Source: an uncultured Actinomycetes bacterium (GTDB taxonomy: Bacteria; Actinomycetota; Coriobacteriia; Coriobacteriales; Atopobiaceae). Taken from it: a DNA stretch of 47,710 nt. The DNA lies in the NCBI GenBank assembly GCA_900313905.1, contig OMTG01000153.1, positions 1 to 47,710 on the forward strand. Direction: 5' to 3'. Every line of letters begins with the position of its first letter. Position 1 is the stretch's first letter. Below the pieces are notes generated by a model. It was not told where the DNA came from. It ran no database searches and saw only the letters and a list, made by a program, of their open reading frames with translations. This document shows positions 19,281 through 32,884 of this stretch, one piece after another. The translations under genes and the position numbers were made by a program.

Positions 19281-19504
19281 GCCACAACCCCCAGACCGGA
19301 CATGCCCTCGGAAGAGCGCTTGATACCTTCAAAGGATACCCCACATCGGATGCCTGCACACCCCCGCACAAGGACGGGCGACCAATTTCATCTGTCCGCC
19401 GCCCCAGACACATGGGAAGACGGTGCATACAGGAAAACAGGCAAAACCCTTGAAACGAAGAGCGCCTATCATGGATGCAACACTGATGCAGAAAGGTGCC
19501 GCAT

Positions 19505-20374
19505 ATGAGAATCGATTCGATCCTGGCGAAGAAGCAGACCTATTCCTACGAGATCTTCCCGCCCAAAGGCGAGCTTCCCCTCGAGGAGGCGTGCAAGGTG
19601 GCGCAGGAGCTTGCACTTGACCATCCCGACTGGATCTCGACGACCTTCTCGGCCGGAGGATCGGGCAACTCCCAGAACACGGCAGCCATCTGCGATGCTG
19701 TGCAGAACAGCCTGCACGTCACCTCGCTGGCCCATCTGACCTGCATGGGCGCCACGACCGAGACGGTCGACGCCTATCTGGACACGCTTTCCCGCGCAGG
19801 CATCGAGAATGTGCTGGCCCTCCGGGGCGACAGGGTCCCAGGACGCGAGCCGAAGGACTTCGAGTATGCCTCCGACCTGATCGCCCACATAAAGAGCCGC
19901 AATCCGGACCTCTGCATCGGCGCTGCCTGCTATCCCGAGGGGCATGTGGAATCGCCCTCGATGGAGAAGTCCATCGAGGCGCTCAAGCGCAAGCAGGATG
20001 CCGGTGCCGACTTCCTCGTGACCCAGCTCTTCTTCGACAACGAGCTCTTCTACCACTTCCGCGACCTCTGCGCCCGCGGCCGCATCAAGATCCCCATCGT
20101 CGTCGGCATCATGCCCTTCACGAGCAAGAACCAGATCCAGCGCATGGCATTCACCTGCGGCGCGACCATCCCCTCCCGCGTGATCAAGCGCATCATCGCC
20201 GCCGGCGAGGACCCTGCCGCCCAGGCGGAGGCGGGCGTCGTCTATGCACAGGAGCAGCTCTGCGACCTCGCCGCCAACGGCGTCGATGGCCTGCACATCT
20301 ATTCGATGAACAAGCCGCAGATGGCCCACAAGATCCATGCGGCGCTCAAGGAGTGCGGCTACCTTGCCTCATAG
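19505..20374 (+). CDS. metF: methylenetetrahydrofolate reductase
   Basis: A 289-residue flavoprotein of the MetF family, making 5-methyl-THF for MetH. It shows SYEIFPPKG at the start, AHLTCMGAT, LALRGDRVPG (folate/FAD site), AACYPEGHVES and DFLVTQLFFDN, followed by GIMPFTS. It is the first gene of an overlapping set metF, MetH-reactivation protein, metH. The start ATG 19505 has AAAGG upstream. No SAM or cobalamin riboswitch was found in the 224-bp gap before it. Confidence 0.9.
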   Translation: MRIDSILAKKQTYSYEIFPPKGELPLEEACKVAQELALDHPDWISTTFSAGGSGNSQNTAAICDAVQNSLHVTSLAHLTCMGATTETVDAYLDTLSRAGIENVLALRGDRVPGREPKDFEYASDLIAHIKSRNPDLCIGAACYPEGHVESPSMEKSIEALKRKQDAGADFLVTQLFFDNELFYHFRDLCARGRIKIPIVVGIMPFTSKNQIQRMAFTCGATIPSRVIKRIIAAGEDPAAQAEAGVVYAQEQLCDLAANGVDGLHIYSMNKPQMAHKIHAALKECGYLAS

Positions 20375-21086
20375 CCAATTCATCTCATCCTTCGAGATAG
20401 ATTCCATCTCCCGCACGGAGGTGCTGCGCTACCTCGGCTACGCAGGCCAGGAATACTCCACCAACCTCGATGATGCGCTCACCCGGGAGATTGGCCGTGC
20501 CCTTGCCATCTCCACCCCGAAAGGGACGGGGCAGATCTTCGAGGTCGAGCGCATGGACCCGTCTGTCCCCCGCGTCGTCCTGAAGGACACGGCGCTCGTC
20601 CTCGATGGTGAAGATATGCAGAAGCATCTGGCCGGCGCCAAGGAGGTCGGCGTCTTCGCCGTGACCCTCGGGATGGCAAACGAGCGCGAGCTCCGGAGGC
20701 TCTCGCTCACCGACCGCCTCTCCCACGTGCTTTTCGACGCCGCATCGGTCGCCCTCGTGGAGCGTGCCGCCGATGCAGCGGAGGCCGAGATGGTGCGCCG
20801 CGCTGCCGAGGAAGGCCTCTTCTGCAACTGGCGCTTCTCGCCAGGCTATGGGGACCTGCCGCTCGAGACGCAGCCGACGCTTCTTGCCGCCCTCAATGCC
20901 CAGCGCCTCCTCGGCATCACCCTCTCTCCGAGCCTCCTCATGACGCCGACGAAGAGCGTGACCGCACTCGTCGGCCTCTTCGACGAACCCCAGAAGAGCA
21001 CCCATATGAGCTGCGCCAAGTGCGTCTGCCATGATTTCTGCTCATTCCTTGCACATGGAAGGACCTGCCATGAACGAAGGCGCTAA
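20364..21086 (+). CDS. stand-alone methionine synthase reactivation-domain protein
   Basis: About 240 residues resembling the C-terminal activation domain of MetH, which binds SAM and re-methylates inactive cob(II)alamin. It has ISRTEVLRYLGYAGQE at the start, GVFAVTLGMANERELRRL in the middle and WRFSPGYGDLPLETQ, followed by LLGITLSPSLLMTPTKSVTAL, the domain's best conserved run. The end has a Cys cluster, CAKCVCHDFC, plus one later Cys. That may bind a metal or Fe-S cluster and is not part of the classical domain. I prefer TTG 20364 (AAGGAG 12 bp upstream); ATG 20337 is an alternative without a ribosome site. It overlaps metF by 11 bp and metH by 17 bp. Confidence 0.8.
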   Translation: MPHSQFISSFEIDSISRTEVLRYLGYAGQEYSTNLDDALTREIGRALAISTPKGTGQIFEVERMDPSVPRVVLKDTALVLDGEDMQKHLAGAKEVGVFAVTLGMANERELRRLSLTDRLSHVLFDAASVALVERAADAAEAEMVRRAAEEGLFCNWRFSPGYGDLPLETQPTLLAALNAQRLLGITLSPSLLMTPTKSVTALVGLFDEPQKSTHMSCAKCVCHDFCSFLAHGRTCHERRR

Positions 21087-23586
21087 AGCACTCGCACCCC
21101 TCGCCGTCCGCGACCCCATGGTGCCGAAGGAGGCACCCTTCGGGCCCGGGAAGAAGCGGGAGCTCCGCATCAAGGACGAGCACCTTGCCCGCGTGCTCGA
21201 AGGGAAGGACTTCCTCCTCTTCGATGGAGCCATGGGGACGCAGCTCCAGGCAGAGGGCCTCGAGGCAGGGGCCCTGCCCGAGCTCCTCTGCCTCACGGAC
21301 CCCAATGAGGTGACAGCCATCCATGCCTCCTATGTGGCAGCTGGCTCCGAGGCGGTGACGACGAACACATTCGGCGCGAATTCGGCAAAGCTCGGCGGCG
21401 GCCATACGGTCCGCGAGATCTTCACGGCAGCTGTCGGCTGCGCCCGCAGGAGCGGCGCCCGCTATGTGGCGGCAGACATCGGCCCCACAGGCGCCCTCCT
21501 GGAGCCGATGGGGACGCTCCCCTTTGCCGATGCCTATACGCTCTTCGCAGAGGAGGCCATAGCGGCACGCGATGCCGGAGCCGACCTCTTCATTATCGAG
21601 ACGATGGCAGACCTCGCTGAGGCGAAGGCAGCCCTTCTTGCCGTCAAGGAGCACACCGACCTGCCCGTCTTCGTGACCATGACATTCGGGGAGGACGGCA
21701 GGACCTTCCTTGGGACGACGCCCGAGGCAGCAGCGGTCACGCTCTCCTCGCTTGGCGCCGATGCGGTCGGCATCAACTGCTCGCTCGGCCCTGCCGAGGT
21801 CGCGCCGCTCGTCTTGAGGATGCTCCCCTATCTCTCCTGCCCCTGCATGGTGCAGGCCAATGCCGGCCTGCCCGAGGTGCATGACGGGGTGACGAGCTAC
21901 GGGATTGGAGCCGAGGAGTTCGTCTCGGCGATGGAGCCGCTCGTCGCAGCGGGCGTCTCCATCATCGGCGGCTGCTGCGGCACCGCTCCGGACTATATCA
22001 GGCGCGAGCGGGAGCTCCTCGAGCGCTACGGCACGCCCCAAGGGCACGAGCTCTGCCCCGACTTCACGGTCACGAGCTCCCAGCAGCTCCTCTCCCTTGC
22101 CCCCTCCCATGTCGGCATCATCGGCGAGCGCATCAACCCGACCGGCAAGAAGCGCATGAAGGAGGCGCTGCGTTCCGAGGACTTCGACTACATCCTGACG
22201 CTCGCCCTCGAGCAGGAGCGCGCTGGCGCCCAGATCCTCGATATCAATGTCGGCCTGCCCGAGATCGATGAGGCCAGGCTCCTGAAGCGCGTGGTCGGCG
22301 ATGTCTCCGGCGTGACCTCGCTCCCGCTCCAGATAGACTCTGCCGATGCGGCAGCGGTCGAGGCAGTCGTCAGGTCCTATCCCGGCAAGCCCCTCATCAA
22401 CTCGACCAACGGCCGCGAAGATGTGATGGAGCATGTCATCCCGATCGCTGCCCATTACGGCTGCGCCCTCGTCTGCCTGACGCTCGACGAGAGCGGCATC
22501 CCCTCCACGGCGGAAGGCAGGCTCGCGGTGGCAGAGAAGATCTATGCACGGGCCACCTCATATGGCATCCCGCCCAAGGACCTTGTCTTCGACTGCCTCG
22601 CTATGGCGGCAAGCACGGACCAGACCGCCCCGGGAAAGATCCTCGAGAGCATCCGCCTCGTGAAGGAGCGCTTCCCCGGCGTCCGCACGGTCCTCGGCGT
22701 CTCGAACATCAGCTTCGGCCTCCCCTTCCGTCCCCTGATCAATGCCACCTTCCTCGCGGCGTCCTTTGCTGCCGGCCTCGACCTCGCTATCATCAATCCG
22801 GGCCAGCAGCGCATGCACGATGTGGTCGACGCCTGGCGTGTGCTCTCGGGAGAGGATGTGGCAGCCAACCACTATGTGGCACAGAACGCCACGAGGACCG
22901 AGCAGACAGGTCCTGCACAGACGCAGGCACCGGGTGCAGAGAAGGCAGTCCAGGCCTCCGATATGGCTCCAGAGCAGAAGGCCTTCCAGGCGGTCCTCGA
23001 AGGCCGGAAGGCTGCTGTGCAGGATGCCGTCAACGAGCTTCTCCAGGACCACGACGTGATGTATGCCATCAACCAGGTCCTGATCCCAGCCCTCGACGAG
23101 GTCGGCGTCCGCTTCGAGAAGGGCACCTTCTTCCTCCCGCAGCTCATGGCATCAGCCGATGCGGCGAAGGCGGGCTTCGACACGATAAAGGCCAGCCAGG
23201 ATACGAGCGAAGTGCCCACGAAGGGCGAGATCGCGCTCTGCACCGTGAAGGGCGACATCCACGATATCGGGAAGAACATCGTGAAGATGCTGCTCGAGAA
23301 CTATGGCTACCAGGTCTTCGATGTCGGACGCGATGTGGATCCGCAGGCCTTCTGCGACGTGGTCGTCGAGCACCACATCAGGCTTGCCGGACTGAGCGCG
23401 CTCATGACAACAACGGTGCCAGCGATGGGCGAGACGATCGAGCTCCTGCGCAAGCAGGCTCCCTGGTGCAAGGTCGTCGTCGGCGGGGCCGTCCTCAATC
23501 CGGAATACGCGAAGATGGTCGGAGCCGACTACTATGCGAAGGACGCGGCAGAGACCGCCAAGATCGCAGCTGAGGTCCTGGGATAG
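21070..23586 (+). CDS. metH: cobalamin-dependent methionine synthase (short form)
   Basis: An 838-residue MetH lacking the reactivation domain, which is encoded by the preceding gene. In order: homocysteine-binding barrel (about 40-320, FDGAMGTQLQ, GINCSLGP and GGCCGT with the zinc Cys residues), pterin-binding domain (about 345-600, GERINPTGKKRMKEAL), B12 cap (about 640-715) and Rossmann B12-binding domain with DIHDIGKN, His731 being the cobalt ligand. It transfers methyl from 5-methyl-THF to homocysteine. It is probably translated by coupling and ends at a strong terminator. Its cofactor could come from the B12-regulated ECF system downstream. Confidence 0.93.
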   Translation: MNEGAKALAPLAVRDPMVPKEAPFGPGKKRELRIKDEHLARVLEGKDFLLFDGAMGTQLQAEGLEAGALPELLCLTDPNEVTAIHASYVAAGSEAVTTNTFGANSAKLGGGHTVREIFTAAVGCARRSGARYVAADIGPTGALLEPMGTLPFADAYTLFAEEAIAARDAGADLFIIETMADLAEAKAALLAVKEHTDLPVFVTMTFGEDGRTFLGTTPEAAAVTLSSLGADAVGINCSLGPAEVAPLVLRMLPYLSCPCMVQANAGLPEVHDGVTSYGIGAEEFVSAMEPLVAAGVSIIGGCCGTAPDYIRRERELLERYGTPQGHELCPDFTVTSSQQLLSLAPSHVGIIGERINPTGKKRMKEALRSEDFDYILTLALEQERAGAQILDINVGLPEIDEARLLKRVVGDVSGVTSLPLQIDSADAAAVEAVVRSYPGKPLINSTNGREDVMEHVIPIAAHYGCALVCLTLDESGIPSTAEGRLAVAEKIYARATSYGIPPKDLVFDCLAMAASTDQTAPGKILESIRLVKERFPGVRTVLGVSNISFGLPFRPLINATFLAASFAAGLDLAIINPGQQRMHDVVDAWRVLSGEDVAANHYVAQNATRTEQTGPAQTQAPGAEKAVQASDMAPEQKAFQAVLEGRKAAVQDAVNELLQDHDVMYAINQVLIPALDEVGVRFEKGTFFLPQLMASADAAKAGFDTIKASQDTSEVPTKGEIALCTVKGDIHDIGKNIVKMLLENYGYQVFDVGRDVDPQAFCDVVVEHHIRLAGLSALMTTTVPAMGETIELLRKQAPWCKVVVGGAVLNPEYAKMVGADYYAKDAAETAKIAAEVLG

Positions 23587-24682: not shown

Positions 24683-25363
24683 TCAATCATAGCGTGCGAG
24701 CACCCTCGTGAGCGAACGTCCCCAGGGAATCCAGATAAGCAGCAGGAAACCGGCGGTTGCAAGCCCATGCACCAGATCCAGGGGAAATCCTGCCAGATAG
24801 GCGGCGATCACGGTCTCAGGCGCAAGCGGGCGCACATAGCCGAGCACATACCATCCGTTCAGGATCGCTCCATAGAGGAGGCCTGAGAGGATGCCAGACG
24901 CGGCAAGCTGCCAGCGCTTCCGGAGCAGTCCCCGCTCTGCCAGCGCGCCTCCAAGATAGCCGACAAGCCCCCAGGCATACATCTGGATCGGCGTCCAGGC
25001 TCCCTGCCCGAAGAAGAAGTTCGAGAGCAGGGCCGCAAAGGCTCCGACCACAAATCCGCTCCGCCGCCCCAAGAGGGCCCCTGCCAGGATCGCGATGGCA
25101 GAGACCGGCTTCACATCGGGGACCGCAGCGAAAAGGACCCTCCCTGCCGCTGCAAGGGCCGCAAGGCACACCGTCGGCATCATCTGCCGCATCGTCGGCC
25201 TCGACGATTCCACCTGCGCGAACAGGAAGACGACAGCAAGGACGCAGGCAAGGAGCGTGAGGCCACCCGAGATCGAGGAGCCCATCCAGGCCGACCAGAG
25301 CATCACAGCAGGGACCGCGACAAGGACCGCTGGCTCGAGCACACGCAGCATCTTCCTCCTCAT
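24683..25363 (-). CDS. ECF transporter S component (probably cobalamin-type)
   Basis: A 226-residue integral membrane protein with about six hydrophobic segments. It is the substrate-binding subunit of an energy-coupling-factor transporter. Landmarks are GRVLFAAVPDVKPVSAIAIL, GALLGRRSGFVVGAFAALLSN and FFFGQGAWTPIQMYAWGLVG, the last resembling the GQGPWTPWQM run that I recall in CbrT-like S components. The ATG at 25363 overlaps the stop of the ATPase gene (ATGA). An in-frame ATG 12 bp later has AGGAGG before it and may be the true start. As the last gene of a cobalamin-riboswitch operon, cobamide is the expected substrate; this is an inference. Confidence 0.82.
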   Translation of the reverse strand: MRRKMLRVLEPAVLVAVPAVMLWSAWMGSSISGGLTLLACVLAVVFLFAQVESSRPTMRQMMPTVCLAALAAAGRVLFAAVPDVKPVSAIAILAGALLGRRSGFVVGAFAALLSNFFFGQGAWTPIQMYAWGLVGYLGGALAERGLLRKRWQLAASGILSGLLYGAILNGWYVLGYVRPLAPETVIAAYLAGFPLDLVHGLATAGFLLLIWIPWGRSLTRVLARYD

Positions 25364-26811
25364 CGCTTCTGCCCCCAAAGCCAGGACGACGAGAGGAACT
25401 CCGCAGTCGGCGCCGTGAGGGCGACATTCCCATCGAAGAGGAGCGAGACCGATGAGGCGGCTGCCTCGATCAGCTCCTCATCATGACTCGACATGATGAC
25501 CGTCACGCCTTCTGCCTGCGCCGCCAGAAGCGCATCCACCAGGGCGGACTTCGCCTTCCTGTCAAGGCCACGGCTCGGCTCATCGAGCAGGAGCAGCTCC
25601 GGCTTCGTGAGCAGGAGCTTCGCAAGCGCGACCAGCTGCTGCTGCCCGCCCGACACATCATAGGGATGATGGGACAGGAAGGCATCATCCTGAGGGAGCC
25701 CCAGCCGCTCCAGGCATGCCTTTGCCTCATCCATCCTGTAGCCGACGGTCCCGCCCCATTCCATGAGCTCCTCGGCAATCGTCTCCTTCGAGAAGAGCGC
25801 CTTGGGATTCTGCGGCAGGAACGCCTGGAGGGAGCGTGCGGCATTGCGGACCCGCCCATGCTGGGCGCGTCCAAGGCCGGCTATCACGGAGAGGAGCGTC
25901 GACTTGCCCGACCCATTGCCGCCGACAAGAGCCCTGATCTCCCCTTTCCCGACCGAGACGGAAAGGCTGCGGAGCACCCAAGGGGCATTCCTGGCATAGC
26001 GGAAATAGACATCCGTGAGATCCACGGCTGGCTCGCCGAAGGGCCCTTTCTGGGGACGCAGCCCAGTGGCGATCCTGAGGGGCTCCTCTTGCTTCAGGCA
26101 ACCCACGCCGACCTCCTCGAGCTGCGGAGCCTCCTCGCCATAGCCATGGAGGAGGAAGGCATGGTCTGCATAGGGAGCCAGCGGCTTCGGCGCATGGGTG
26201 CAGACAACGACCGCGATCCCCAGCTCCTGGTTCATCCGGTACAGAAGCGACAGGAAGGTCCTCTGCGCAAGCGGATCGAGCATCGAGGCCGGCTCATCGA
26301 GCAGGAGCACCTTCGGTCTCATCACCATGAGGGCAGCCAAGGCCAGGATCTGCTTCTGGCCACCCGAGAGCTCTGCGGTCCTCTTCCGGTACCAGGGCTC
26401 GATGCCGAAGAAATAGCAGGTCTCCGCTATGCGCTGGTGCATCTCCTGCTGGCCAAGCCCCAGGTTCTCGAGGCCGAAGGCAAGCTCGTGCCAGACCGTG
26501 TCGCAGACGATCTGGTTCTCGGGATTCTGGAAGACATAGCCGATCTCTGCTGCGGACTGCTGGGGCGAAAGTGCGTCCAGATGCGTCCCGAAAAGCCGCA
26601 CTGAACCTGCCCTCTCCCCATGCGGGGCAAGCTCTGGCTTGAGGAGGCGCAGAAGCGTCGTCTTCCCAGAGCCGGTCGCCCCAAGCAGGACCGAGAAGGA
26701 TCCTTCCGGAATCGAGGCCGTGATGCCATCCAGGACCGGCGTTGCTGGCCGCTCCGTATCGATGGCAGGATAGCTGAAGCCAAGCCCATCAATCTCGAGC
26801 GCGTTTCCCAT
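25360..26811 (-). CDS. ECF transporter ATPase, A and A' fused
   Basis: A 483-residue double ABC ATPase that powers the ECF transporter. Domain 1: Walker A GATGSGKTT (44-52), Q-loop FQNPENQ (95-101), signature LSGGQKQ (148-154), Walker B LLLDEPASMLDP (169-180). Domain 2: Walker A GGNGSGKST (297-305), signature VSGGQQQ (386-392), Walker B LLLLDEPSRGLD (406-417). Both sites look complete. In many ECF systems A and A' are separate genes; here they are one chain. ATG 26811 is preferred (AGGAGG six bases upstream). It overlaps the T-component gene by 23 bp. Confidence 0.9.
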   Translation of the reverse strand: MGNALEIDGLGFSYPAIDTERPATPVLDGITASIPEGSFSVLLGATGSGKTTLLRLLKPELAPHGERAGSVRLFGTHLDALSPQQSAAEIGYVFQNPENQIVCDTVWHELAFGLENLGLGQQEMHQRIAETCYFFGIEPWYRKRTAELSGGQKQILALAALMVMRPKVLLLDEPASMLDPLAQRTFLSLLYRMNQELGIAVVVCTHAPKPLAPYADHAFLLHGYGEEAPQLEEVGVGCLKQEEPLRIATGLRPQKGPFGEPAVDLTDVYFRYARNAPWVLRSLSVSVGKGEIRALVGGNGSGKSTLLSVIAGLGRAQHGRVRNAARSLQAFLPQNPKALFSKETIAEELMEWGGTVGYRMDEAKACLERLGLPQDDAFLSHHPYDVSGGQQQLVALAKLLLTKPELLLLDEPSRGLDRKAKSALVDALLAAQAEGVTVIMSSHDEELIEAAASSVSLLFDGNVALTAPTAEFLSSSWLWGQKR

Positions 26812-27727
26812 CATGGTCCTCCTTCCACCAGGCAAGGCTCTCGGCAGCAGCCGAGAGCAGAGGCAGCGCCGCCTCAGCAGCATAGGGCAGATAGCCCCAC
26901 CACCAGACGAGGCTGGGCATCACGGGATAGAAGCTCCACTGGGAGCAGGCGATCCACGCAAGGACTGCATTGAGGATGCCGAGGGCGAGAAGCGCAATGC
27001 AGGCGCTGGCGTCCCGTCCGCTGAATCGCAAGGTCCGATAGCTGCTGCGCTGAGCACCGCTCCCCCAGCCCCGTGCGCGCATCGCATCGGAGCGCTCAAT
27101 CGAATCCTCGAGGGTCCAGGACAGCAGGATCCCTCCCGCAAGGAGGCCCATGCGCTCCTGGGAAGGAGAGGGGTGCCTCGATGCGGTGCAGGCAAGCTGC
27201 GTCTCCTTCACGATGGAGAATCGCCGCATGATCTGCGGCACGAGCTGGGCCGCTATGGCCAGCATCGTCGTGATTGCAGGAAAGCGCCTGCCGCCAAGGC
27301 CCATGAGCTCATCCTGGCTCACGAGGGCAGCGAGGTCCTCGAACCAGAGGATGACCGAGATGAGCGAGATGCCCATGGTCGCTCCATAGGCAAGGCTCTC
27401 GGCCTTGAGATGGAAGGGGCCAAGCGCCAGGAGCTCGGTTGCGCCATAGCCCGCAAAGAGCGCGTTTGCGCAGGCCAGGAGCACGATGAGTGGCAGCTGC
27501 CACGCAAGCTGCCTGGATGTCCTATCCCAGCCACGCGACACGCCTGAAAGGAGGAATGCTGCCACAAGCCCCATGCTGGCATAGACAGGCTGCACAGCGA
27601 ACATCGCCATGAGCAGCATCTCGGTCCCGAAGAGCGCTGCGACCGCAGGATGGAAGGACGAGAAGGGCTTGAAGCGCTCCTTGGGCATCGTCCCTTCAAG
27701 GCCTGTGGGTTCCTCAGTACGAGACAT
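26789..27727 (-). CDS. ECF transporter T component
   Basis: A membrane protein of 312 residues from ATG 27727, or 299 from ATG 27688, which has GAAGG upstream. Four N-terminal and one or more C-terminal hydrophobic segments flank a cytoplasmic coupling region. The EcfT Ala-Arg-Gly motif appears as RSDAMRARGWGS, the coupling helix that contacts the ATPases. The first ATG overlaps the stop of the DUF4430 gene by 14 bp. It couples the ATPase to the S component. Confidence 0.87.
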   Translation of the reverse strand: MSRTEEPTGLEGTMPKERFKPFSSFHPAVAALFGTEMLLMAMFAVQPVYASMGLVAAFLLSGVSRGWDRTSRQLAWQLPLIVLLACANALFAGYGATELLALGPFHLKAESLAYGATMGISLISVILWFEDLAALVSQDELMGLGGRRFPAITTMLAIAAQLVPQIMRRFSIVKETQLACTASRHPSPSQERMGLLAGGILLSWTLEDSIERSDAMRARGWGSGAQRSSYRTLRFSGRDASACIALLALGILNAVLAWIACSQWSFYPVMPSLVWWWGYLPYAAEAALPLLSAAAESLAWWKEDHDGKRARD

Positions 27728-28946
27728 AGGTCCACGCAACCGTATCGCCCGCAGAAAGCGTGTAGTAGGCAGCCGACATGCTCGGCTCGGAGCCATTCAC
27801 GGCGTAGACCCAGCCCATCCGGTCTGTCGAGGTGGCCTCGATGCCGGAGATACCATTCACATAGAGCCCGTAGCTCGTATTGCGTGCATCCACGCTATAG
27901 CCAGCCGCGACGAGGGCATCGTAGGCAGAAGAGCCTGCCGGAATGCTGACACGGGCGCTCGAGGTCCTGCCGCCACCCAAAGACCCATTGACGGTGACCG
28001 TCACCATGATGGTGGACGGCTGGGATGTGCCTCCGGAAGAAGCCGAGGAGGAGGTGCCGCTGGAGCCACCAGCTGAAGCAGAGGAGGAGCTCTTGGTTCC
28101 CGGATCTGCAGCGGGCGCGCTCCCATCTGTGGCGGCAGCACCGGACGAATCGGGCGCAGAGGCAGTGCCACTCTGGCTTGAGTCCTGGCTATCGGACTGG
28201 CTCTCTCCATCATTCCCCGAAGCCGCTCCCGTCGCTGCTGCCGCCTCCTCTTCCGCGGCGGTCTCCTGGGCTTCCTCGTCGGCAGGGGCCAAAGCAAGGC
28301 TGCTACCGTCTGCATTGGTGATGGCATCGCCTTGGGACTGCGGCATATCGGAAAGCCCCAGCTCCTGATAGCTGCTATCCGAGAGGGCATAGCCCGAAAG
28401 CGAGGAGAGGAGCGACTGGGTGGATCCTGCATCCACGCTATCAAGCGTCTGGCCGGGTGCAAGCGTGCAGGCAAAGCGGACATGGCCACCGCTGTCCTGG
28501 AGGATCCAGCAGATGGTCACTGGCTCTTCCGCATCGCTTTCATCGCGTGCCCAGACATGGAGCGCCATGGCCCTCTTGGAGGCAAGCGGGATGGCAGTCG
28601 ATGCATCCTCGTCACTTGTCTGCACGATCCAGACCGTACCATCAGAGAGCGTGACGTCCACGCCATCCGGATCGATGCTGACATCCTCGCCCTGGAAGGA
28701 GAGGCTCCCGAGAGCGGCGCGAATCTGCTCCTCGGTGAGCTCCTGCGAAGGAGCTTCTTCAGCCGTGGTGCTGCTGACCGTCTCGAAGAGGCCTGCAGGC
28801 ATCCCATAGACGGCAACGAGCCCTGCTGCCGCGAGGGCAACCAGGGCGATGCCCAAAGCCAGCAGCGCCTTCCAGCTGAGACAGTGGCGCCGGGGGCCTT
28901 CAGGCTGCACCGGCTCATCCGTATCGTGAACGATATAGCTGCTCAT
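27714..28946 (-). CDS. membrane-anchored DUF4430 (transcobalamin-like C-terminal) protein
   Basis: A 410-residue protein with a cytoplasmic N-terminus, one transmembrane anchor (about 26-48), an extracellular region of unknown fold (about 65-205), a long Ser/Gly/Ala linker (about 215-310) and one C-terminal DUF4430 domain (about 315-410). The domain shows SYGLYVNGISGIEA and MGWVYAVNG, with a final GDTVAWTYVSY. InterPro describes this family as transcobalamin-like, C-terminal. It starts 7 bp after the larger DUF4430 gene and overlaps the ECF T gene, so it belongs to the B12-riboswitch operon. It probably hands cobamide to the S component, a role inferred from context only. Confidence 0.8.
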   Translation of the reverse strand: MSSYIVHDTDEPVQPEGPRRHCLSWKALLALGIALVALAAAGLVAVYGMPAGLFETVSSTTAEEAPSQELTEEQIRAALGSLSFQGEDVSIDPDGVDVTLSDGTVWIVQTSDEDASTAIPLASKRAMALHVWARDESDAEEPVTICWILQDSGGHVRFACTLAPGQTLDSVDAGSTQSLLSSLSGYALSDSSYQELGLSDMPQSQGDAITNADGSSLALAPADEEAQETAAEEEAAAATGAASGNDGESQSDSQDSSQSGTASAPDSSGAAATDGSAPAADPGTKSSSSASAGGSSGTSSSASSGGTSQPSTIMVTVTVNGSLGGGRTSSARVSIPAGSSAYDALVAAGYSVDARNTSYGLYVNGISGIEATSTDRMGWVYAVNGSEPSMSAAYYTLSAGDTVAWTYVSY

Positions 28947-28953
28947 ATCCCCG

Positions 28954-31900
28954 CTATTCCTGGCTCTCCTGCTTGCGGCGCTTCAGAGCCGCAAGAATGA
29001 TGAGGAGGCCTGCCGCAAGGAGGCAGAGAAGCGCTATGGCTGGGATATCCAAGCCAGCCTGCGTGCCCTCAGCAGGCGCAGCCAGAGCATCATCCTCGCT
29101 GTCCTCCGTCCCTGTCGAGGCGGCAGTGCTGTCGAGGGCTGCTGCGCTGCTGTCCTCATCTGCCGCCGCATCCGGCGTGGCTTCCCCGTCCGCTGCCACA
29201 GCTGCCGCCACCGTCGCCGATGCACCTGCCGTTGCGGCCCCGCCTTCCTGGCTTCCTGAGCCGCTGCCATTGGATTGCGTGCCCTTGGCATTCGATTTCG
29301 AGGCCGCGCCTGCATCCTGATTCTTGCCCGTATCCTGGTTCGTGTCCGGATTCGGGCTTGTAGACGGCTGCGAATCAGGCTCCTTCTCCCATTTGGCATA
29401 GAGCGTGATGGTCTCGCCGTCGGATCCGATGACGGAGGGATCGAATGCCTCGGTCAGAGCAGCATCCATATACCAGCCCTTGAAGACATAGCCCGCACGC
29501 TGGGGAGTCGGCACGCTTGCTGCCGCCTCGCCCGATGCCTGCTCCTGGCTCTCGAGGACATCTCCGCCCTGCGTATCGAACTGGAGCGTCCAGACGGGCG
29601 CCTTCTTCAGAGCGAAGAGGTAGCCGGAATCGTTCGTGTAGTAGATGGTCCCGTCGCTGCCACAGATGGCAGAGCCTGTGCAGTAGTTGGCATAGCTTCC
29701 CGACGGCTCGAAGATCGTCGTGGCGGCCGAGAGCTTCCCTTCCGACCAGCGCACGATGTAGAGGCTGCCCGGCGTGGCATTGCAGGTCACATAGAGGGAG
29801 ATCGTGCTCCCCTGCTTCGTCACGAGCGGCGTGGACTGGGATGCGCCTGTCCCGACCTCGACGGTCTCAGGCACATAGCCTGCCGTGCCAACCTTCGAGA
29901 GGTCGATGGCCGAAAGCGTGCCGGTCCTCGAAGTCCCTTCGACCTTGGCTCCGCAGACGAAGGCAATGCCATCCGAGATGACCGCCGTCGAGGTGGAGCT
30001 GTCGGCAAAGGAGACCTTGCCTGTCTCTTTGAGCGTCGTGCCCTCAAGCGAGACCAGATGCAGGACGCCGTCAGTCGTCACTGCGGCAAAGCTCGTGTCG
30101 GAGACCTTCGTGACGCCCGCATGGCTTGCGCAGCCCAGGTCGAGCGAACCGATCTCTTCTCCATCCGTCCCATCGATCAGGCGGATGAAGCCCTGCTCAT
30201 CTGCCACGACGATATTGGAGCCCGTGGTCGCTGCCCCTGCCCAGTAGTATTCGTTGCGCTCGGATACCTGCTGCCAGCTCGAGCCATCGGCAAGCGAGGC
30301 AGAGACCAGGATGCCGGTCCCATTCAGGGGATTCAGCCAGTCGACCACCGAGAAGGCAGCATAGACGCGGCCTCCCGCGACGCTCAGGGAGGAGAGCGCC
30401 TGGGTCGAGCCCTCGACCGCGATGCGCGGCGTCTCCCAGACGAGCTTCAATGAGTTGTCCGGATCGTCGGCCGAATAGGTCGTGAAGGCCAGGAGACGTC
30501 CGTCATCCACAGGGACGATCAGGAGGCCTTCCGCATAGATGGGGCGGCAGAAGTAGCTGGTCTTCGTGGAGATGCGCTTGCTTGCAAGCTCCGTGCCCGT
30601 CTGGGCATCCACCACATGGAGCACGCCTTCGCCGACAAGATAGAGCTTGCCGCCAACGAGGACCGGATCGGACTGGCCCATGCCGATCCTGAAGGGCGAC
30701 CAGGCAAGGACCGTCCCTGCCTGGGATGTCGGGGTCGCTGCCGTGACCGCTCCGCCTTCCATCCCCTGGTTGAAGCCGGCCCAGACGACCTCCTCGCTGG
30801 TTCGTTTGGCCGAAGCATCAGGGACCTCAAGGCTTGGGTCGTCGACGATCTGCCCCTCTCCGGGCAATGCGTCTCCCCAGCCTGAGTAGTACCAGACGAT
30901 GCTCGTGCCCTCGCTGAGGGTGACGCCAGACATTCCCGACGATGAGGCTCCTCCATCCACGAAGAGCTGCCAGTACTTCTGGTCGCCGTTGGTGTTGTAG
31001 GCATAGGCCTTCCCATCGAAAGGCGAGGTGATCGCATTGAGATAGGCCCCATAGCTCGTGCTCTGGATGTCCGCTGAGAGGCCAGCGTCCTTGAAGGTGG
31101 ATGTGGTGAGGTCGGCTGCGGTCGAGCCTTCCTTCACCCGGACGGTCTTCTCTGCAAGCCAATTGCAGACATTGCCTTCCGCATCAGGGCCGAGGACCGA
31201 GATCTTGACGGAAAGCTCCATCGTGTCGGGCAGGCTCGCGCCGTAGGCGGAGTAGTACCAGACGATGGACATGCCGTCCGTGAGCGGCACATCGGACATT
31301 CCGGAGTCCGATGCCTTGCCATCCACGAAGAGCTGCCAGTACCTCTGGTCCCCGTTCGTGTTGTAGGCATAGGCCGTGCCGTCTTTGGGCGAGGTGATGG
31401 AGTTCAGGTAGGCGCCATAGTCGGAGCTCTGGATGTCAGCAGAGAGGCCGGCGCCCTTGAAGGCGGATGTGGTGAGGTCGGCTGCCGTCTTCCCGTCCTC
31501 GATCATGACGGACTTCTTGTCGAGCCAGTAGCTGTCGCTGCCGTCTGCACCCGGGCCGATCACCGAGATCGTGACATCGAGCGTCTGCGGAGGGAGGCTC
31601 GCGCCGTAAGCGGAGTAGTACCAGACGACGGACATGCCATCCGTGAGCGGCACGCCGGACATGCCCGAGCTAGAGGCCTCGCCGTCCACGAAGAGCTGCC
31701 AGTACTTCTGGTCGCTGTTCGTGTTGTAGGCATAGGCCTTCCCGTCGACCGGCGAGGTGATGGAATTCAGGTAAGCCCCATAGCTCGTGCTCTGGATGTC
31801 AGCCGTGAGGCCGGCATCCTTCAATGCAGATTCTGTAAGGTCGGCTGCAGTTGAGCCTTCCTTCATCGGGACCGTCGTGGCAGACAGCCACTCCGTATCC

Positions 31901-32316
31901 TTTCCATCGGAGCCTGGGCCGATCACCGAGATTGTGGCCGAGAGCTCCTGGGCATCGTCTGCCGTGCTGGTTTCCGTGGCGGCAATCGTCGATGTGGCTG
32001 CCTGGCCAGACGTGGTGGTCGTGGCTGCGGTACCAGGAGAGATGTCTTCTGCGCTTCCGGAAGCCGTGCCGGCGCCTTGCGCTGCCGCCTCGGACGCCGT
32101 GCTCTCGGCTGTCGATGCCGTATCTGTGGCTGCATCTGCTCCGCTCTGCCCCGCTGCAGATCCAGCTCCTGCATCTTCTGTCTGGGAGGCTGAAACGATG
32201 GCTTCCTGGCCCGTGCCTTCCGCCAGAGCTGCTACGGGCACCTGCGTCCAGGCAAGGGCGATGCTCAGGAAAGCCGCCAGAAGCCTCTGCGCCGTTGGGT
32301 GGCTCTTCATCCACAT
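28954..32316 (-). CDS. surface protein: three transcobalamin-like domains, beta-propeller, InlB-type repeat, C-terminal anchor
   Basis: A 1120-residue exported protein. Signal peptide about 1-32; low-complexity Ala/Ser/Thr linker 33-122; three DUF4430 repeats (127-241, 247-361, 367-485), each with SxYGAYLNxITSP, YWQLFVDG and a final WYYS strand; a PQQ-like beta-propeller (about 540-905); a Listeria-Bacteroides (Flg_new) repeat (about 911-977, GYVFKGWYMD); a disordered acidic linker; a transmembrane segment (1090-1110) and KRRKQ tail. No LPXTG motif is present, so it is membrane-anchored, not sortase-linked. ATG 32316 is chosen for AAGGAG eight bases upstream. It is the first gene after the cobalamin riboswitch. 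Cobamide capture at the surface is the likely role; the propeller's ligand is unknown. Confidence 0.83.
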   Translation of the reverse strand: MWMKSHPTAQRLLAAFLSIALAWTQVPVAALAEGTGQEAIVSASQTEDAGAGSAAGQSGADAATDTASTAESTASEAAAQGAGTASGSAEDISPGTAATTTTSGQAATSTIAATETSTADDAQELSATISVIGPGSDGKDTEWLSATTVPMKEGSTAADLTESALKDAGLTADIQSTSYGAYLNSITSPVDGKAYAYNTNSDQKYWQLFVDGEASSSGMSGVPLTDGMSVVWYYSAYGASLPPQTLDVTISVIGPGADGSDSYWLDKKSVMIEDGKTAADLTTSAFKGAGLSADIQSSDYGAYLNSITSPKDGTAYAYNTNGDQRYWQLFVDGKASDSGMSDVPLTDGMSIVWYYSAYGASLPDTMELSVKISVLGPDAEGNVCNWLAEKTVRVKEGSTAADLTTSTFKDAGLSADIQSTSYGAYLNAITSPFDGKAYAYNTNGDQKYWQLFVDGGASSSGMSGVTLSEGTSIVWYYSGWGDALPGEGQIVDDPSLEVPDASAKRTSEEVVWAGFNQGMEGGAVTAATPTSQAGTVLAWSPFRIGMGQSDPVLVGGKLYLVGEGVLHVVDAQTGTELASKRISTKTSYFCRPIYAEGLLIVPVDDGRLLAFTTYSADDPDNSLKLVWETPRIAVEGSTQALSSLSVAGGRVYAAFSVVDWLNPLNGTGILVSASLADGSSWQQVSERNEYYWAGAATTGSNIVVADEQGFIRLIDGTDGEEIGSLDLGCASHAGVTKVSDTSFAAVTTDGVLHLVSLEGTTLKETGKVSFADSSTSTAVISDGIAFVCGAKVEGTSRTGTLSAIDLSKVGTAGYVPETVEVGTGASQSTPLVTKQGSTISLYVTCNATPGSLYIVRWSEGKLSAATTIFEPSGSYANYCTGSAICGSDGTIYYTNDSGYLFALKKAPVWTLQFDTQGGDVLESQEQASGEAAASVPTPQRAGYVFKGWYMDAALTEAFDPSVIGSDGETITLYAKWEKEPDSQPSTSPNPDTNQDTGKNQDAGAASKSNAKGTQSNGSGSGSQEGGAATAGASATVAAAVAADGEATPDAAADEDSSAAALDSTAASTGTEDSEDDALAAPAEGTQAGLDIPAIALLCLLAAGLLIILAALKRRKQESQE
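30862..31938 (-). repeat. three tandem DUF4430 coding repeats
   Basis: Three units of roughly 345-357 bp (31594-31938, 31234-31578, 30862-31218) share long near-identical stretches, for example the codons for NTNGDQKYWQLFVDG. This points to internal duplication. Divergence is concentrated in the strand that follows each VIGP/VLGP motif. Confidence 0.85.
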
Positions 32317-32439
32317 GCTGCATGCTCCTTCCATACCGGATGCAGAAGCCAAGCAGCAGGGATGGGAGACAGGCGCATAGCACCTCTCCCTTCCACCGTA
32401 CCGGCTGGCTTCCCACACGCCCGGGTCGCTTTGCCTATC

Positions 32440-32621
32440 GACGAGGGGCAGGTCTCCTGGCTTGAGGGTTGAACGCATCCGTCCTCTCCAAGCCCCTTCT
32501 CAGGCCGAGGCCCAATGGGATTGCGCTTGGAACGTGCCCTCTCACAGTAGTGGCGGCTGTCCCGGATCTGCACCGGGTTCCCTTTTGATCCCTGCACGAG
32601 CATGCAGGGAACCGTCTCGTC
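32440..32621 (-). ncRNA. cobalamin riboswitch
   Basis: On the minus strand the P1 arms GACGAG (32616-32621) and CTCGTC (32440-32445) close the element. Inside are the conserved core GGGAACCCGGTGCAGATCC, then CCGCCACTACTGTGA, and the B12 box GCCAGGAGACCTGCC (32447-32461). All are hallmarks of the AdoCbl riboswitch class. It lies 124 bp upstream of the large DUF4430 gene. The stretch between holds a GGGAGA/TCTCCC hairpin (32364-32390) without a T run, so control may be on translation. Upstream, CATATAAGC at about 32633-32641 gives a possible -10. Confidence 0.93.
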
Positions 32622-32884
32622 AGACAGTGTCGCTTATATGCATGTCAGGCACCGTTCAGTGCCCTGCTGCAAGTCTAGCAACCAGCTGGCAAAATGAGAA
32701 GCCCCTTGCGATGCACTCGACAGCATGCCGCCTCTTTGCCCATTCCGGAAACGGCAGACAGCACGGCCGGCTATGCGCTGTCCGCCGCCCAAAGCATGCC
32801 GCCCGGAAGGCAGGGGGCGACGTTTCCTGCTGCAACCTGCTAGGCTCATTGTGTCCCGGGAGCCATCCACCCAAGGAGGCACAC
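32622..32884. other. divergent intergenic region
   Basis: It separates the riboswitch 5' end from the acidic orphan gene. It should hold promoters for both. I see only a TATAAG -10-like element for the riboswitch transcript and no convincing -35. No ORF is supported. Confidence 0.4.

Follow-up and report, generated by a model that had tools for sequence, protein, structure and literature searches.

A predicted cobamide-scavenging operon joining transcobalamin-like surface proteins to a CbrT-type ECF transporter in an uncultured Atopobiaceae bacterium

To our knowledge, only the membrane step of vitamin B12 handling has been described in Gram-positive bacteria (CbrT, BtuFCD), and not the way in which these cells, which have no outer membrane, catch the scarce vitamin at their surface. 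BtuFCD is a B12 importer found in many Gram-positive bacteria, often under the same class of riboswitch as the operon described here, and CbrUVT is a transporter reportedly predicted by Rodionov in 2009. The operon lies on the minus strand of contig OMTG01000153.1 (GenBank assembly GCA_900313905.1), from an uncultured actinomycete of the family Atopobiaceae; the window is the whole stretch that was analysed, positions 1 to 47,710. It consists of a cobalamin riboswitch followed by five genes that encode two surface proteins with DUF4430 domains and the T, A-A′ and S components of an energy-coupling factor (ECF) transporter. With a probability of about 0.78, it is read here as a cobamide-scavenging operon, in which DUF4430 domains and a beta-propeller would capture cobamides at the surface, a small DUF4430 protein would relay them, and a CbrT-type S component would import them by means of the ECF motor.

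CbrT, the closest described relative of the transporter, is an experimentally proven S component that binds and transports cobalamin and cobinamide (PMC5997447). The CbrT and CbrUVT systems (6FNP, PMC5997447) share with the window the T, A-A′ and CbrT-type S components, a cobalamin context and adjoining DUF4430 genes. However, the solved CbrT complex is of the shared-module type (group II) and was studied without a capture protein, whereas the window encodes a dedicated module together with two DUF4430 surface proteins, one of them with three such domains and a propeller, under a riboswitch. Surveys list CbrUVT as a transporter of B12 or its precursors, and DUF4430 is not mentioned in the portions of these surveys that were available (PMC6593275, PMC8123684). 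Literature naming DUF4430 yielded no tie of the bacterial domain to B12 uptake, with subscription papers outside the search, so that an earlier report is possible. A preliminary description of this locus, made from the sequence, had presented it as a little-described system; the transport half, however, is already catalogued as CbrUVT, and the operon is widespread.

Vertebrate B12 carriers (transcobalamin, haptocorrin and intrinsic factor) resemble the window’s proteins in the fold and sequence of their beta domain. They possess an alpha domain and act through receptor-mediated endocytosis, whereas the large protein of the window combines three beta domains with a propeller, lacks the alpha domain, is membrane-anchored and would feed an ECF transporter. 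The alpha-toroid of the vertebrate carriers is shared with many Bacillota relatives of this protein. BtuG of Bacteroides, a seven-bladed propeller lipoprotein that partners with the outer-membrane protein BtuB (PMC6143338), is likewise a beta-propeller surface protein of a B12 uptake locus, yet the propeller of the window is of the BamB/pyrroloquinoline quinone (PQQ) type by sequence. Genes for BtuF, BtuC and BtuD are absent among the five genes, none of which matches these proteins, and an identity of the operon with BtuFCD was rejected.

The riboswitch and the five genes

The riboswitch, the genes and their parts are arranged as follows.

32430 to 32632, minus strand: complete cobalamin riboswitch aptamer (RF00174, Infernal), in the operon leader
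28954 to 32313, minus strand: large surface protein, 1119 amino acids (Pfam and NCBIfam; three DUF4430, E-value 2.9e-27 for the protein)
31588 to 31944, minus strand: DUF4430 module 1 (Pfam PF14478)
31219 to 31581, minus strand: DUF4430 module 2 (Pfam PF14478)
30859 to 31215, minus strand: DUF4430 module 3 (Pfam PF14478)
29590 to 30855, minus strand: PQQ/BamB-type beta-propeller region (profile of seven relatives; TIGR03300, 2e-8)
27714 to 28946, minus strand: small membrane-proximal protein, 410 amino acids (Pfam DUF4430, E-value 8.5e-13)
27717 to 28016, minus strand: DUF4430 domain of the small protein, modelled (AlphaFold and Foldseek)
26789 to 27727, minus strand: EcfT, CbiQ-like transmembrane component (homologues in the same operon position match PF02361)
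25360 to 26811, minus strand: EcfA-A′ fusion with two ABC ATPase domains (two stretches of PF00005, ABC_tran, E-value 7e-54; TIGR04520/04521)
24683 to 25363, minus strand: EcfS, CbrT-family substrate-binding component (PF07155/PF12822; kinship with CbrT)

The match to RF00174 runs from 32632 to 32430, covers positions 1 to 189 of the 189-position model and scores 102.3 bits (E-value 1.3e-24), where the gathering score is 31.5. It is the single match in the whole 2.78 Mb genome. The complete riboswitch that had been recognized in the preliminary description is thereby borne out, although the element was ended there at 32621 and actually extends 11 bases further, to 32632. A terminator was sought in the leader between the riboswitch and the first gene and none was found. 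The class of the riboswitch suggests OFF-type control, in which the operon would be expressed when adenosylcobalamin is low.

Downstream of the riboswitch, the five tightly packed genes encode in order the triple-DUF4430 surface protein, the DUF4430 membrane protein, EcfT, the fused EcfA-A′ and EcfS, and end at 24683. This co-directional order and the three DUF4430 modules had been read correctly beforehand, as Pfam, NCBIfam and the translations agree, and so had the gaps and overlaps of +7, -14, -23 and, with a TTG start for the S gene, -19 bases. For the S gene, the ATG at 25363, which gives a four-base ATGA overlap, is the better start, and the TTG at 25378 (the 19-base overlap) is possible. 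The ATG of the large protein at 32313 is preceded by GGAG at a distance of 8 bases. This protein is composed of a signal peptide, the three DUF4430 modules, the beta-propeller, a Listeria-Bacteroides repeat and a C-terminal membrane anchor with a basic tail; no LPXTG motif was seen in it. The preliminary description had identified the modules and overlooked both the propeller and the repeat. The small protein consists of an N-terminal membrane helix, a low-complexity stalk and a C-terminal DUF4430 domain. DUF4430 does not occur elsewhere in the genome, and scans of viral contigs with the large protein and the A-A′ fusion gave no relatives.

EcfT of the window has no Pfam match on its own; its homologues match CbiQ (PF02361) at 1.9e-17 and 3.1e-14 and are annotated as energy-coupling factor component T. 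With T, A, A′ and S all encoded within one operon, the transporter is of the ECF kind with a dedicated module (CbrUVT type).

The S component, the DUF4430 domains and the propeller

Searched alone, the S component of the window has CbrT of the ECF-CbrT complex (6FNP, E-value 1.4e-6) as its only PDB match. When a profile built from 23 S proteins of DUF4430 operons, from which CbrT was left out, is used instead, the match to CbrT has an E-value of 2.5e-26, compared with 0.005 for 4HZU, the S chain that comes next; NCBIfam gives only weak matches to the riboflavin and folate S families. By these profile comparisons, the S component belongs with CbrT rather than with a non-corrinoid S family, a grouping that the preliminary description had named as a possible contrary outcome.

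The relation of DUF4430 to the vertebrate carriers can be followed in sequence and in fold. A profile of 26 bacterial DUF4430 domains, containing no vertebrate sequence, matches transcobalamin-2 at 6e-5 (its isolated beta domain), transcobalamin-1 at 0.005 and, weakly, intrinsic factor at 0.24. In the profile alignment, the conserved (S)-Y-G-x-Y loop falls on S357-Y362 of transcobalamin and an invariant tryptophan on W377. Within this loop the backbone of L358 forms a hydrogen bond with the phosphate of cobalamin in holo-transcobalamin (PMC5599065). The DUF4430 domain of the small protein was modelled with AlphaFold from an alignment of this domain with the other modules of the window and a CbrS of the L. 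delbrueckii type, and reached a predicted local distance difference test (pLDDT) score of 87.6. With this model, Foldseek returned 19 PDB matches below 1e-3, all of them transcobalamin, haptocorrin, intrinsic factor or the bacterial structure 3U7Z, the next match being at 0.14. The template modelling (TM) score is 0.82 to the transcobalamin beta domain and as high as 0.83 among the matches below 1e-3. Judged by profile and modelled fold, DUF4430 is a transcobalamin-type beta domain, in keeping with the transcobalamin-like label it had been given beforehand. The isolated beta domain of transcobalamin binds cyanocobalamin in crystals, and also cobinamide (PMC5599065); because of this, a lone DUF4430 domain could plausibly bind a cobamide.

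The structure 3U7Z, from Ruminococcus gnavus, is filed as a putative metal-binding protein and has the DUF4430/transcobalamin beta fold. On this fold, the protein may be a candidate cobamide binder.

The region at 29590-30855 is blank in Pfam. A profile of this region from seven relatives matches BamB structures (3.5e-16), designed Cake propellers (2e-18) and quinoprotein propellers. BtuG (3DSM) is not among its matches, and kinship of the propeller with BtuG was rejected by sequence, not by fold. A single-sequence AlphaFold model of module 3 with the propeller had a pLDDT of 36 and was not used.

The propeller takes the place of the alpha6/alpha6 toroid alpha domain, which is not present in the large protein of the window. 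In relatives from the same family, the large protein is 860 to 2170 amino acids long and has the same propeller, placed after its DUF4430 modules, which number one to three; in the longer versions, immunoglobulin (Ig)-like domains lie ahead of them. Instead of the propeller, large proteins of Bacillota possess SLH domains, which bind the wall, and in many cases DUF4430 is preceded by an alpha-toroid. Among 33 large proteins scanned from both phyla, SLH was found in 23, SQHop_cyclase_C in 10 and Prenyltrans in 7. A profile of the toroid from Bacillota relatives matches squalene cyclases as well as transcobalamin-1 at 1e-4, and many Bacillota large proteins, in which an alpha-toroid is combined with a beta domain, are laid out like transcobalamin and intrinsic factor. 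In two loci of other Actinomycetota (L100 and L108), a separate propeller protein of 873 and 869 amino acids, respectively, lies in the DUF4430-ECF neighbourhood; the propeller therefore recurs as a gene of its own.

Distribution of the operon

Within the family of the window the S gene is present in 83 of 140 genomes. Nearly all of 20 neighbourhoods from this family have the T, A-A′ and S genes in company with DUF4430 genes, one or two in number. The profile matched no DUF4430 in two neighbourhoods, and several have the S gene at a certain remove from A-A′. As a separate observation, the operon persists in most other genera of the family, with no RF00174 match at it (loci L036-L055).

On the scale of phyla, DUF4430 was found in 95 of the 299 genomes sampled from Bacillota and in 62 of the 296 from Actinomycetota. 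For Bacillota 40 DUF4430 loci, about every second genome, were taken, and for Actinomycetota 20. ECF genes are present at 34 of the former and 17 of the latter, and the order small DUF4430, T, A-A′ recurs at 26 of the 40 Bacillota loci. No fewer than 27 of these 40 have an RF00174 match upstream on their own strand, at most 9.5 kb away, where 0.33 would be expected from riboswitch density; the 27 is a lower bound, because several contigs are short and the counts come from the matches listed. The whole operon set is thus conserved over two phyla, and the system is widespread rather than local.

Related versions are found near known cbrT genes. The cluster in L. delbrueckii is nrdJ-cbrS-cbrT-pduO (PMC5997447). 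The same cluster, with a protein 97% like L. delbrueckii CbrT, was seen in a record titled Faecalicatena absiana (L056, 5213-9066), as either a recent transfer or a contaminating contig. Its gene between nrdJ and cbrT encodes a secreted DUF4430 protein (Pfam, 1.1e-20), so that cbrS would be a minimal form of the captor. In L. delbrueckii DSM 20074 (L057, 7721-7960), the nrdJ-cbrS region has shrunk to one short frame that begins like nrdJ and closes with the final part of cbrS, and cbrT is intact. CbrVUT genes are reported on the L. plantarum plasmid pMF1298-5 (PMC6722938); they are the same T, A-A′ and S set, and a DUF4430 gene follows two genes further along. Between the CbrT-type S and DUF4430 genes of this plasmid lies an annotated fucose-binding lectin II that has no Pfam match (L119, 6416-7468). 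In L. rhamnosus a DUF4430 gene adjoins the B12-dependent reductase gene rtpR (PMC9963975). One Bacillota operon contains two CbrT-type S genes in tandem, perhaps for different cobamides (L064, 2371-4858).

Proposed mechanism, alternatives and genomic setting

In the proposed mechanism, low intracellular adenosylcobalamin would allow the riboswitch to permit expression of the operon. The large protein, with its three DUF4430 modules and propeller outside the membrane, would capture cobamides, and the small membrane-anchored protein would receive them near the membrane and hand them to the CbrT-type S component. The latter would dock on the EcfT/A-A′ motor, which hydrolyses ATP, and deliver its cargo. 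The interpretation of the operon in the preliminary description, which ran along these lines, is supported by the RF00174 match, the kinship with CbrT and the transcobalamin link, and in addition by the shared arrangement of genes and riboswitches in two phyla and by the presence of a DUF4430 gene, cbrS, within the cbrT cluster of L. delbrueckii; cobamide binding by DUF4430 and the propeller, the two-step relay and the sign of the regulation are inferred.

Several points weigh against this reading. For bacterial DUF4430 domains no binding data were found, and a hidden ribosome-binding site is not clearly visible in the fold predicted for the leader RNA (z -1.4). Scans of 16 other loci of the family gave an RF00174 match at the operon in only three, the two genus mates and a further genome; control therefore differs at most family operons. 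The affinity of the large protein could be low because it lacks the alpha domain, which transcobalamin uses to close over B12. Two FecCD permeases are encoded on other contigs of the genome, without RF00174, and permeases of this type could carry B12 too. Moreover, CbrT is active in proteoliposomes without CbrS (PMC5997447), and DUF4430 is therefore not needed for transport itself.

This last result also lends itself to an improbable alternative, in which the ECF part imports cobamides and the DUF4430/propeller proteins serve for adhesion or as scaffolds of the envelope, without binding any cobamide. The large proteins are indeed very variable (600 to 2300 amino acids), and their Ig-like, SLH, Listeria-Bacteroides-repeat and propeller parts are typical of surface adhesins. 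Nevertheless, nearly all large proteins sampled sit in the transporter operon, their constant part is the DUF4430 with its transcobalamin fold and a motif aligned to the cobalamin loop, and the minimal version in L. delbrueckii is a mere DUF4430 domain beside cbrT.

The cargo might also be incomplete corrinoids (cobinamide, cobyrinate a,c-diamide) or other cobamides instead of B12 itself. CbrT transports cobinamide as well (PMC5997447), CbrUVT appears under cobyrinate-diamide uptake in the available part of one survey (PMC8123684), and the transcobalamin beta domain also accepts cobinamide (PMC5599065). Yet the motif aligned to the phosphate loop of transcobalamin is conserved, which argues for complete cobamides, and CbiD was not found in the genome; specificity of this kind is considered rather unlikely. 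With CbiD missing, the genome gave no sign of an anaerobic de novo route to corrinoids, which is consistent with a reliance on outside corrinoids. A riboswitch-controlled importer of another tetrapyrrole or metal (haem, cobalt), comparable to CbiMNQO or the haem ECF transporter of Staphylococcus lugdunensis, is hardly credible. While the T component is CbiQ-like (by Pfam, through its homologues), the A component is CbiO-like and a haem ECF transporter does exist (PMC7299338), CbiM and CbiN are absent from the operon, the S component matches CbrT much better than any other solved S component, and the only structures matched by the fold of DUF4430 are cobalamin carriers and a single bacterial DUF4430 structure. 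It was on these last two points that import of cobalt or haem was rejected.

If the cobamide-scavenging reading is correct, DUF4430, a domain of unknown function in about one third of the Bacillota and one fifth of the Actinomycetota genomes sampled, is proposed to be the missing capture domain, and would be tied to the B12 carriers of humans, the competitors of gut bacteria; 3U7Z offers an immediate object for testing cobamide binding. Tentatively, these proteins may be ancient, riboswitch-controlled B12 captors of Gram-positive bacteria that are homologous to the vertebrate carriers, the latter being derived from them or of common origin, and the lineage of the window may have exchanged the toroid for a propeller clamp. 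Surface proteins of alpha-toroid and DUF4430 hung on the wall by SLH domains would then be true homologues of the vertebrate B12 carriers, and the propeller swap would represent a new kind of cobamide clamp.

Just beyond the operon, at 19496-23586 on the plus strand, are genes for MTHFR, for the activation domain of MetH as a protein of its own and for a MetH without that domain. This MetH is B12-dependent and 851 amino acids long, with two B12-binding domains, and MetH also flanks the operon in a genus mate (L036). The location of the MetH genes beside the operon speaks in favour of the cobamide-scavenging reading. A Guanidine-III riboswitch (L043, 15037-15097) lies in the neighbourhood of another family member and is unrelated to the operon.

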